Positions 13,536-29,269 of a stretch of 64,000 nt of DNA are shown one piece after another; position 1 is the stretch's first letter, and each line of letters begins with the position of its first letter. Under the pieces are notes generated by a model. That model did no database searches, was not told the origin of the DNA, and saw only the letters and a program-made list of their open reading frames with translations. This DNA comes from Eggerthellaceae bacterium (GTDB taxonomy: Bacteria; Actinomycetota; Coriobacteriia; Coriobacteriales; Eggerthellaceae): positions 1 to 64,000 of the forward strand of contig JALCHN010000001.1 in NCBI GenBank assembly GCA_022644775.1. The letters run 5' to 3'. A program made the position numbers and the translations under genes.

Positions 13536-14081
13536 TTAATCCTTAAACGGGAAGCCCAGGGCGTCGAACAGAGCCTTGGCGCTGCCGTCATCTTCAGCAG
13601 TGGTGACGAAGGTGATATCCATACCACGGGTGCGATCGATCTTTTCGTAGTCGATCTCGGGGAAGATGAGCTGTTCGGTGATACCGAGGGTGTAGTTACC
13701 GCGACCGTCGAAAGACGTGGACGGGATACCGCGGAAGTCGCGCACGCGCGGCAGAGCGATGGCCAGCAGGCGATCCAGGAACTCCCACATGCGGTCGCCG
13801 CGCAGGGTCACCTTGCAGCCGATCGGCTGACCGGCGCGTACGTGGAAGCCGGCGATGGACTTCTTGGCGCGGCAGATCATGGGCTGCTGGCCGGTGATCT
13901 GGCGCATGTCGGCCACGGCGGCATCGAGCAGCTTGGCGTCGCCGGAGGCAGCGCCCACGCCCATGTTCACAACGATCTTTTCCAGACGCGGAACCTGGTT
14001 GATGTTCTGGATCGACAGCTCTTTTTCGAGCTTGGAGACGATCTCGTTCTTGTACTTTTCCTTCAGACGAGGAGCAGTCAT
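13536..14081 (-). CDS. rplE: 50S ribosomal protein L5
   Basis: [25 protein letters not shown] at 14081 preferred over 14144. Confidence 0.97.
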
Positions 14082-14105
14082 CTTGCATTCCTTCCGATGA
14101 TTTGA

Positions 14106-14187
14106 ACGTAGGATTTCCGACCCTACGTCCCTTGCAATCTGCAAGGGTCATGGCAAAACCTGCCCGCACAGGGCGGACAGGTTTTGC
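14106..14187 (-). promoter_or_regulatory. three abutting hairpins in rplX-rplE gap (candidate leader/autoregulatory RNA)
   Basis: plus coordinates 14106-14128 (7-bp stem), 14129-14147 (8-bp stem), 14153-14187 (15-bp stem including one G-U). Confidence 0.6.
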
Positions 14188-14200
14188 AAACTAGGATACT

Positions 14201-14518
14201 TTAATCGATATCGGCGCCGCACTTCTTGCAAACGCGAATCTTCTTACCATCTTCACGCTTGATGGCAACGCGGGTCGGCTTGCCGCACTTGGGGCAGACC
14301 AGCATCACGTTGGACACGTGGATGGGAGCCTCGACGTGGGTCAGGCCGCCCTGGGGGTTGGCCTGCGTGGGATGCAGGGCCTTGGTGACCACGTTGACCT
14401 TTTCGACCACGACGCGCTCTTTCTGGGGAAGCGCACGGATCACGGTGGATTCAACGCCCTTGTCTTTACCGGCGAGGACCTTGACCTTATCGCCCTTCTT
14501 GATTTTCATCTTTGCCAT
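14201..14518 (-). CDS. rplX: 50S ribosomal protein L24
   Basis: [21 protein letters not shown]. Confidence 0.98.
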
Positions 14519-17209: not shown

Positions 17210-18040
17210 CTACTTCTTGCGACGACGAATGATCAGGCGACTCGAAGGCTTCTTCGGGTTGCGGGTGCGATGGCCCTTGGTAGGCACGCCCCACGGAGAA
17301 ACGGGATGACGACCGGAGGTCTTGTTCTTGCCTTCGCCACCGCCATGGGGATGGTCGACCGGGTTCATAACAGTACCGCGGACGGTCGGACGGACGCCCA
17401 TCCAACGCTTGCGGCCGGCCTTGCCGATCTTGATGTTGGAGTGCTCGGCATTGCCCACTTCGCCGATCGTGGCGCGGCAGGTGACGAGCACGCGGCGCAT
17501 TTCGGAAGACGGCATGCGCAGAATCGCGTACTTGCCTTCCTTGCCCATCAGCTGGATGCTCGTGCCGGCGGAGCGGGCGATCGCAGCGCCCTTGCCCGGC
17601 TGGAGCTCGACGGCATGGATGAGCGTACCGACGGGGATGGAGGACAGCGGCAGAGCGTTGCCCGGCTTGATATCGGCATCAGGACCGGAGACGACGGTGT
17701 CGCCGACCTTGAGGCCGCGAGGATACAGGATGTAGCGCTTCTCGCCATCGGCGTAGTGCAGAAGCGCGATGCGCGCGCTACGGTTCGGGTCGTATTCGAC
17801 CGTGGCAACCTTGGCGGGCACGCCGTCCTTGTTGCGCTTGAAGTCGATGATACGGTAACGACGCTTGGCGCCGCCGCCCTGATGACGCGTCGTGATGCGA
17901 CCGTAGTTGTTGCGGCCTGCCTTCTTCGGCAGAGGCGTGAGCAACGACTTCTCCGGCTTGTCGCAGGTGATTTCCGCGAAGTCGGAAACCGTCTGGAAGC
18001 GACGACCGGGGCTGGTCGGCTTGAACTGCTTGACTCCCAT
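17210..18040 (-). CDS. rplB: 50S ribosomal protein L2
   Basis: [34 protein letters not shown]. Confidence 0.98.
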
Positions 18041-18195: not shown

Positions 18196-18269
18196 GGGAA
18201 TTTGAGCTTTCGCCGATCGCCCATACAACACCCACAATTAGCCCGGTGCCGCAGAGTATGATACCACCT

Positions 18270-19745
18270 ATGGAAAATTCCTCCCCCGCAAAGAACGATT
18301 CGCGCGCCGCCGACGCGCACCGCCTTGGCCCCGAAGCTCTGGGCGCCGAGGATCTGCGCGTATTCGAGGAGATCGAGGCCTGGCGCAAGGGCGAGAGCAC
18401 CGCCGACGACGAGAAGATGAAGGCGGCCTACCACGTGGACAAGGAGCTCGCCTTCCGCGACTCCTACCAACCGCCCCACCCCACCATCCTGATTCTTCAT
18501 GCCTCGGTGGGGTCGGGCCACCGCAGCGCGGCGATCGCCATCGCCCAGGAGCTCTGCGACCTGCGCGACCGCCAGCTGCCCGCCTTCCCCGACGGCCGCC
18601 CGCTCGACCCCGGCACGCGCGTGGTCGTATCCGACATCTTGGCCTGGGGCGACCACGTCTTCGACGGCAACAAGACCGCGACAAGTTTCACGGGCAAAAC
18701 GCGCCCCCTCTACGACCTCACCTGGCGCTACACCTTCACGGGCCGGGCTCTGTGGGGACAGGGGACCTTCCTTAACTACGTCATGTGGCGCAAGTTCACC
18801 CGCTACATCGGCCACATCAAGCCGCTCGCCGTAATCGCCACCCACATCATGGGAGCCAACATGGCCGCCGGCGCGCGCACGATCTGCAAGCAGAGCTACC
18901 CGCTCGTCTGCGTGCCCACCGACTACGAAACGGAAGGCCTGTGGCCCCACAAGGCCGCCGACGTCTTCTGCGTGGGCAACGAATCGATGGCCGAGACTCT
19001 GCGCGCCCGCCACATCGCCGACGAGAGGATCCGCATCACCGGCATCCCCACGCGCATCGATTTCCGCCGCTCCTACGACACCGCCCAGGTGCGCGAGCGC
19101 TTCGGCCTGCCCGCCGACAAGAAGATCGTGCTCGCGTTAGCCGGCGCCACCCTCCCCCAGCCCTACGTGATCTTCCGCCAGACGCTCGAGACGGTGATCC
19201 CCGCGTTCGCCGACCATCCCGACCTGCACCTGGTCATGGTCTGCGGCAAGGATGCCGACTACACGGCCCACGTGCGGGACCTGTGCGCAGAGCACGGGCT
19301 TGCAAACGTCACCGTGCTCGAGTACGTGAACGGCATGGCCTCCCTCATGGCCGCAAGCGACGTGATCGTCACGAAATCGGGAGGGCTCACCGTGACCGAA
19401 TGCCTCGTGTCGAGTACGCCGATGATCTTGGTGGGGCGCGCCTACGGCCAGGAGAAGGTCAACGTCAACATGCTCACCAACGCCGGTGCCGCCATCCACG
19501 TGACGACGGCCCGCGAGCTCGTCAGCCAGATCGACCTCATCGACCGCCACCCCGAGCGCCTGTCGTCGATGGTGGTCAACGCCAACCTCCTGCGCCGCCC
19601 CAACGCCGCCCACGACATCGCCCGGACCACCCTTGAGCTCACCGCTCTGCCCGCCGACAAGGTGCAGCACGTGGTCGTGACCAAGAAGCTGGCCTGGACC
19701 CTCTTCAACTTCTACTGGGGCGACAAGCCCGCCCACATCCGCTAA
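18270..19745 (+). CDS. glycosyltransferase family 28 / diacylglycerol glucosyltransferase (MGDG synthase-like)
   Basis: ILILHASVGSGHRSAAIAIAQEL N-terminal motif; C-terminal KSGGLTVTECLVSSTPMILVGRAYGQEKVN; lies between rplB and rplW on the opposite strand. Confidence 0.85.
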   Translation: MENSSPAKNDSRAADAHRLGPEALGAEDLRVFEEIEAWRKGESTADDEKMKAAYHVDKELAFRDSYQPPHPTILILHASVGSGHRSAAIAIAQELCDLRDRQLPAFPDGRPLDPGTRVVVSDILAWGDHVFDGNKTATSFTGKTRPLYDLTWRYTFTGRALWGQGTFLNYVMWRKFTRYIGHIKPLAVIATHIMGANMAAGARTICKQSYPLVCVPTDYETEGLWPHKAADVFCVGNESMAETLRARHIADERIRITGIPTRIDFRRSYDTAQVRERFGLPADKKIVLALAGATLPQPYVIFRQTLETVIPAFADHPDLHLVMVCGKDADYTAHVRDLCAEHGLANVTVLEYVNGMASLMAASDVIVTKSGGLTVTECLVSSTPMILVGRAYGQEKVNVNMLTNAGAAIHVTTARELVSQIDLIDRHPERLSSMVVNANLLRRPNAAHDIARTTLELTALPADKVQHVVVTKKLAWTLFNFYWGDKPAHIR

Positions 19746-19908: not shown

Positions 19909-20196
19909 TTAGTTGGCGGCGAACAGCTCGATGGAGTCGCCTTCCGCCAGCGTCACCATAGCCTTCTTCCAGCTACGGGTCTTGCCGACGCTCGTGCGCA
20001 CGCGCTTGGGCTTCGGCTTGACGTTCAAGGTGTTCACCTTGACGACCTTGACGTCGAAGAGCTCTTCGACGGCCTTGGCGATTTCGACCTTGTTCGAGGT
20101 CTTGGCCACTTCGAAGGTGTAGACGTTGTCGGCCATACGGTCATAGCTATGCTCAGAGATGACCGGACGGATGATCACTTCGCGAGGATCCTTCAT
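19909..20196 (-). CDS. rplW: 50S ribosomal protein L23
   Basis: MKDPREVIIRPVISEHSYDRMADNVYTFEV. Confidence 0.98.
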   Translation of the reverse strand: MKDPREVIIRPVISEHSYDRMADNVYTFEVAKTSNKVEIAKAVEELFDVKVVKVNTLNVKPKPKRVRTSVGKTRSWKKAMVTLAEGDSIELFAAN

Positions 20197-28645: not shown

Positions 28646-29269
28646 CTACTTGCCCCAGTTCTTGAAATCGAACATGTCCTGCAGGTCGTCGACGACGCTC
28701 TTGAGCTCGCGAGCCGTTTCGGCGCCTTCCTTGACGATTTGGTTGAGGTCGTCGGTGGTGCGCTGGACGCGGTCGTAGGTCTTCTTGCCCTCGCTGGGCG
28801 CTTCCTCTTCGACGACGGTGAGCTCGGCGCGCTCCTCTTCGGTAAGGGAGTCCCAGTCGACGGGGTTGCCGTCCTCGTCGACGTAGACCACGTCGTCTTC
28901 GCCGGGCAGCGGGTTGCCGTCCTCGTCGACCGGGTTGCCGTCCTCGTCGACCGGGTTGCCGTCCTCGTCGACGTAGACGACCTCGACGTCCTCGTCCTCT
29001 TCGGCACCCTCGGCCTCTGCTTCCCCCGCAGCGGCCGCCTCCGCGCCTTCCGAATCGTTCTCGCCCTCTGCGCCGGCGGAATCCACATCCGCGGCTTCGG
29101 GGGCCTGCTCATCCTCTTCGACGACCGGGTTGCCGTCCTCGTCGACGTAGACGACCTCGACGTCCTCGTCCTCGGACGCATCGAAGACGACGACTTCTTC
29201 GTTCGGGGAAGCCGCAGCCGCCTTCACGCTCTTCGCCTTGGCCTTCGATTTCCTCTTAATCAAGCGCAT
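28646..29269 (-). CDS. acidic repeat protein with DEDGNP repeats, unknown function
   Basis: MRLIKRKSKAKAKS basic head; VDEDGNPV repeats; C-terminal helix-like tail TYDRVQRTTDDLNQIVKEGAETARELKSVVDDLQDMFDF; follows smpB with an RBS. Confidence 0.8.
   Translation of the reverse strand: MRLIKRKSKAKAKSVKAAAASPNEEVVVFDASEDEDVEVVYVDEDGNPVVEEDEQAPEAADVDSAGAEGENDSEGAEAAAAGEAEAEGAEEDEDVEVVYVDEDGNPVDEDGNPVDEDGNPLPGEDDVVYVDEDGNPVDWDSLTEEERAELTVVEEEAPSEGKKTYDRVQRTTDDLNQIVKEGAETARELKSVVDDLQDMFDFKNWGK
28862..29174. repeat. 21-bp tandem repeat and ~47-bp direct repeat inside the acidic protein gene
   Basis: gggttgccgtcctcgtcgacc units in tandem near 28910-28975; block gggttgccgtcctcgtcgacgtagacgacctcgacgtcctcgtcctc recurs near 28953 and 29127. 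Confidence 0.85.

Follow-up and report, generated by a model that had tools for sequence, protein, structure and literature searches.

The rplX-rplE junction of the spc operon is the site of the S8 operator in E. coli, where S8 lowers the downstream cistrons by translational coupling, and a 2024 review states the matter as unknown for B. subtilis and for any species other than E. coli and V. cholerae (PMC10931766). What occupies this junction in Coriobacteriia is the question raised by an Eggerthellaceae bacterium in which rplX and rplE are separated by 119 nt on the minus strand (coordinates refer to the window, i.e., the whole stretch of 64,000 nt analysed). An earlier note had described three abutting hairpins in this gap and proposed that they form a lineage-specific target of S8 or another ribosomal protein, or an attenuator. 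Positions 14097-14151 (-) are best read as a ribosomal leader within the S10-spc mRNA, just 5' of the rplE ribosome-binding site, and that a conserved regulatory RNA resides at the junction is hardly in doubt. The fuller reading has an even chance of being right: L5 (uL5) would control its own synthesis through a class-wide leader imitating helix 84 (H84) of the 23S rRNA, to our knowledge the first r-leader for L5. Coordinates and open reading frames (ORFs) place the element in the part of the spc mRNA where rplE translation is initiated, with the following features in the order of the transcript:

14201-14518 (-): rplX, the upstream gene, encoding ribosomal protein L24 (ORF and Pfam PF17136)
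14153-14187 (-): H0, a 15-bp hairpin, GCAAAACCTGTCCGC-CCTGT-GCGGGCAGGTTTTGC (repeats, fold and comparison with relatives)
14148-14151 (-): 5' strand of stem P1, AUGA (covariation and fold)
14129-14147 (-): hairpin P2, CCCTTGCA-GAT-TGCAAGGG (inverted repeat and covariation)
14106-14128 (-): hairpin P3, 23 nt, ACGTAGGGT-CGGAA-ATCCTACGT (covariation and fold)
14112-14122 (-): H84-like tip within P3, GGUCGGAAAUC (class consensus GGUYRGWAAYC), the proposed L5 binding site (comparison with 23S rRNA)
14101-14105 (-): junction strand J3/1, UCAAA (comparison with relatives)
14097-14100 (-): 3' strand of stem P1, UCAU (covariation and fold)
14089-14095 (-): Shine-Dalgarno sequence of rplE, GGAAGGA, 1 nt past P1 (sequence)
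13536-14081 (-): rplE, encoding ribosomal protein L5, with its ATG at 14079-14081 (ORF and Pfam PF00281, PF00673)

Structure of the rplX-rplE gap

The three inverted repeats lie exactly where they had been reported, at 14153-14167/14173-14187 (15 nt, one G-U), 14129-14136/14140-14147 (8 nt, perfect) and 14106-14112/14122-14128 (7 nt, perfect), and the minus-strand RNA of the gap is predicted to fold into exactly these three hairpins (-64.5 kcal/mol, z -3.5, with 2 of 200 shuffles equally good). They do not, however, form a single unit, since the 15-bp hairpin is unconserved. Instead, a 4-bp closing stem absent from the earlier note (P1, ATGR/YCAT, pairing 14148-14151 with 14097-14100) joins the second and third hairpins into one three-way junction, and the third hairpin gains a G-U and a U-A pair, giving a 9-bp stem with the 5-nt loop CGGAA. 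The resulting conserved block starts with AUGR and ends with YCAU 1 nt ahead of the Shine-Dalgarno sequence, and the isolated 60-nt element folds into the P1-P2-P3 shape at -24.2 kcal/mol (z -4.3), which none of 200 shuffles equalled. Among relatives, P2 retains its pairing while its sequence and length are free to vary, P3 has a nearly invariant tip on a stem with compensatory changes, and J3/1 reads UUAAU, UUAAAA or UGAGAA. A pseudoknot between a P1 strand and the P3 loop (UGAC/GUCG), noticed by eye, was dropped, as the same letters are explained by the covarying P1 pairing.

The 15-bp hairpin, H0, is on comparison with relatives separate from the leader. The sister species has it with a compensatory change, and a strong hairpin of some kind is found at its site in most Eggerthellaceae, with neither sequence nor presence conserved, several relatives (L024, L026) having no H0 or a dissimilar one. 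Possibly, it is a barrier or weak terminator at the rplX end, protecting or ending the rplX part of the transcript. The GC-rich, A/U-ended arms of H0 and the terminator-like hairpins in the gap of some relatives (L025) would also fit the attenuator or terminator between rplX and rplE that had been suggested earlier. However, the terminator-like A...U ends of H0 comprise just four U, all within the stem, no U-run follows P2 or P3, and a terminator scan listed none of the three hairpins, i.e., none is a GC-rich hairpin with a U-run at once after it. Together with the patchy occurrence of H0, this makes transcription attenuation a highly improbable explanation, and nothing indicates it for P2 and P3.

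Covariation and distribution

The earlier note had named a lack of compensatory changes in relatives among the outcomes that would refute its proposal; many such changes were found. In the main covariation set of 24 sequences, mostly from Eggerthellaceae, 97.6% of the pair cells contain standard pairs, double changes occur at 10 of 19 pairs, and the covariation score is 0.338, compared to 0.141 for shuffled alignments (reached in 0 of 500) and at most 0.089 for slid partners. For the short P1 stem, the 3' strands of 46 distinct class members were re-dealt among them; the observed pairing was 3.01, against 2.39 +/- 0.11 after shuffling (0 of 5000). While relatedness inflates covariation counts, P1 nevertheless switches in different families, among the types AUGA/UCAU, AUGG/CCAU, GAGG/CCUC, CGG/CCG and GCGG/CCGU.

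A covariance model of the element (R1) was used to search genomes: of 113 from Eggerthellaceae, 103 contain a single strong copy (E below 1e-7), and of 400 from Coriobacteriia, 190 give matches at E <= 1. All 40 matches that were fetched, mostly divergent ones, are located before rplE, and rplE lies downstream in every member inspected. With a conserved secondary structure supported by covariation and a consistent position before ribosomal protein genes, the element qualifies as a ribosomal leader under the comparative criteria of the field. A search of 397 genomes from the phylum yielded no credible R1 match outside Coriobacteriia, and Streptomyces and other actinobacteria have almost no gap between rplX and rplE.

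Within the class, the element varies between families. Some genomes of families f13 and f14 lack it, and in family f12, which falls outside the order, there is no junction and a lone hairpin with an H84-like tip precedes rplE. Minimum-energy folding does not predict this lone hairpin in f12. Its tip in one f12 genome (G098) is GGUCGGCAAUC, carrying the 23S letter at the position that otherwise differs between leaders and rRNA. Conversely, Collinsella (f10) and some Atopobiaceae keep P1, P2 and the P3 base but have another tip in P3, so that the tip is not found in every lineage with the element.

Two further variations of P3 were observed. Collinsella-type loci (L246, L250, L040, L043, L045) carry a long variable insert in place of the tip, often ACAACCC...GGCCAAG, and keep P1, P2, the P3 base and the AAAACCCC strand; the insert may represent a ligand switch or a new binding element. 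In Atopobiaceae and families f6 and f9 (e.g., L174, L189, L027 and L021), P3 contains a conserved A-C mismatch (GAGG/CCCC), where the stem of other families has A-U or G-C, combined with a G-U farther up.

The P3 tip and helix 84 of the 23S rRNA

The tip GGUYRGWAAYC is the most conserved part of the element in most families, including the one without the junction, and resembles H84, which reads GGUYGGCAAYC in every Coriobacteriia 23S rRNA from which it was extracted (a search of 60 genomes) and GGUCGGACAUC in E. coli (23S 2303-2313). When every stem-closed site in the 16S and 23S rRNA was scored against the P3 tip (maximum 11), H84 was the single best match, at 10/11, in all four genomes scanned, and also in the E. 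coli 23S rRNA. The two hairpins share the tip GGUYGGNAAYC with the same predicted pairing and 5-nt loop geometry, but the surrounding stem and junction are unrelated, and one tip position differs systematically, most leaders having A or U where the Coriobacteriia 23S rRNA has C. A match of 10/11 or better anywhere in the rRNA is expected by chance in ~5% of random sets, and loop-permuted consensus sets gave a match this good for all four genomes at once in 3%; these figures should be read with the fact that H84 was reached after other rRNA sites (h21 and H18-H20) had been compared. What makes the match persuasive is that H84 is contacted by the product of the adjacent gene, L5, and we judge the joint chance of such a match and of its falling on the site of that product to be near 1%, allowing for several acceptable sites.

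In ribosome structures, the P-site loop of uL5 contacts H84 (PMC10531944). Yeast uL5 (RpL11) is pulled down by a 19-nt H84 hairpin on its own, GGGAGAACAGAAATCTCCC, which also competes the chaperone off RpL11, showing that a lone hairpin can suffice for L5 (PMC4396368). The H84-like hairpin kept on its own in f12 supports the tip as the core of the element, while the Collinsella and Atopobiaceae members that retain P1, P2 and the P3 base with another tip show that it does not account for everything. In unbiased covariance scans, H84 does not stand out either: R1 matched it in rRNA at E 2.4-3.5 only, and a model of P3 alone (R2) gave no H84 match in rRNA, its top matches being GC-rich hairpins. 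Because of these scans and the loss of the tip in Collinsella, L5 is rated as the probable ligand of the leader and not more, with the balance slightly in its favor.

The earlier note had put forward S8 as a possible ligand, and the same P3 hairpin was compared with 16S helix 21 (h21). A conserved leader that binds S8, as in the E. coli spc operon but through another RNA shape, would fit the position in the operon, which equals that of the E. coli S8 operator (PMC10931766). It would also fit the role of S8 as a primary rRNA binder encoded two genes downstream, and the P3 form of an outgroup, GAGGUUGGAAACCCC, can be read as A595 / G596-C644 / G597-C643 / U598-A640 / A641 A642. However, the form of the window and the majority, CAGGGUCGGAAAUCCUG, lacks an unpaired A595 and shows G-U where G597-C643 is expected, and nothing prolongs the helix above 598-640. 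Base by base against the 16S rRNA of the genus, whose h21 is AAGCGG...CCGAACCGG, the core features of S8 recognition (unpaired A595, G597-C643, N641 and A642) are missing from P3, which is a continuous stem with a G-U. In the stem-closed scan, no h21 site scored above 7/11. Furthermore, the element stops ~15 nt 5' of the start codon, unlike the E. coli operator, which includes the start region. S8 is thus quite unlikely as the ligand, and L5 appears to be the better candidate from the rRNA comparison. Of the earlier proposal of a lineage-specific ribosomal protein target at the L24-L5 junction, the general idea is well supported, the element being conserved, covarying, class-wide, located before rplE and abutting its ribosome-binding site, whereas S8 as its ligand is not.

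Alternatively, the leader could be bound by L24, encoded directly upstream, or by another protein of the operon, with the junction rather than the tip being recognized. The retention of the junction without the tip in Collinsella and some Atopobiaceae would agree with this, and P3 plus J3/1 loosely resembles 23S H20 and the strand after it, a region bound by L24 and L4. This likeness to H18-H20, appealing by eye, was rejected, as local alignment of 71 leaders to the 16S and 23S rRNA gave no enrichment there and the R1 scan no match. Moreover, the tip rather than the junction is most conserved in most families, even where the junction is lost, and recognition of the junction by L24 or another protein is considered unlikely.

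Proposed mechanism of L5 autoregulation

If L5 is the ligand, free L5 in excess over 23S and 5S rRNA would bind the P3 tip as an imitation of H84, its docking site in the large ribosomal subunit. L5 bound at the tip would lock or stabilize the junction next to the Shine-Dalgarno sequence, hindering 30S binding and blocking initiation of rplE. As the first repressed gene, rplE would then take the following genes down by translational coupling, namely those for S14, S8, L6, L18, S5, L30 and L15 and secY. We infer L5 binding at the tip and the block of initiation; the abutment of P1 on the Shine-Dalgarno sequence is directly apparent from the locus. That abutment also means that folding alone could limit initiation, and a conserved structure acting without protein, e.g., by passive tuning of rplE translation or mRNA decay, might be suspected further from the H0-like strong hairpins upstream in most Eggerthellaceae. 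Yet, a passive barrier would not require the 11 nt of the tip to be nearly invariant while the stem varies freely, leaving such a role rather improbable and L5 binding the preferred reading.

Relation to known leaders

In the window and 12 relatives, no Rfam 15 family matched the element at or above its gathering threshold. The best sub-threshold match, engA RNA (RF02972; 18.6 bits, E 0.12, cut-off 46), likewise has two abutting hairpins and is attributed to chance, because no match above the cut-off occurred in 61 genomes of the order and control genomes match at the same level. The leaders described by Eckert and Weinberg in 2020, including L31-Coriobacteria (RF03128), are also conserved, covarying RNAs before ribosomal protein genes, each in one lineage, but none of the 20 precedes rplE or has L5 as its ligand, and RF03128 matches here at noise level (14.9 bits, E 4). 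No leader of this structure or with L5 as ligand was found in the open-licence literature, an earlier report elsewhere being possible.

The closest parallel is the E. coli S8 operator, whose principle is rRNA mimicry (PMC10931766, PMC4176348). The leader described here shares with it the rplX-rplE junction and the expected effect, a block of rplE initiation with downstream coupling, but consists of a three-way junction with an H84-like tip and not of an internal loop resembling h21, stops short of the start region, and has L5 rather than S8 as its probable ligand. Lacking the S8 core, it is not a member of the E. coli operator family. It provides a concrete, class-wide candidate at this junction, with a testable ligand. 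If L5 is right, two lineages would regulate the same operon at the same junction by different proteins and unrelated RNAs, with L5 replacing S8 as the regulator. The output of the spc operon would then be tied to the 5S RNP and central protuberance branch of 50S assembly, L5 would be added to the ligands known for r-leaders, and the element would constitute a natural 60-nt L5-binding RNA.

Other features of the S10-spc region

TATAAT/TACAAT-like sequences are found in the gaps before rplE of several relatives (L009, L011, L013, L026, L034 and L199), some after strong hairpins, and for this reason an operon promoter may reside at the rplX-rplE junction in some of them. Upstream, the S10 operon of the window contains an inverted gene for an MGDG-synthase/GT28-type glycosyltransferase (18240-19745, +) between rplB (17210-18040, -) and rplW (19909-20196, -), with a terminator-like hairpin (19885-19857, -) after rplW. 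The sister species carries the inverted gene at the same position (91% identity), and it was not found in four other genera of Eggerthellaceae. In four other Eggerthellaceae loci (L252, L253, L254 and L255), no rplW was detected in the ~4 kb fetched upstream of rplB, which holds unrelated ORFs; this suggests a break in the S10 operon between the L23 and L2 genes across much of the family. Finally, positions 28910-28972 consist of three perfect copies of a 21-nt unit (CGGGTTGCCGTCCTCGTCGAC), which would correspond to a 7-residue repeat if coding.
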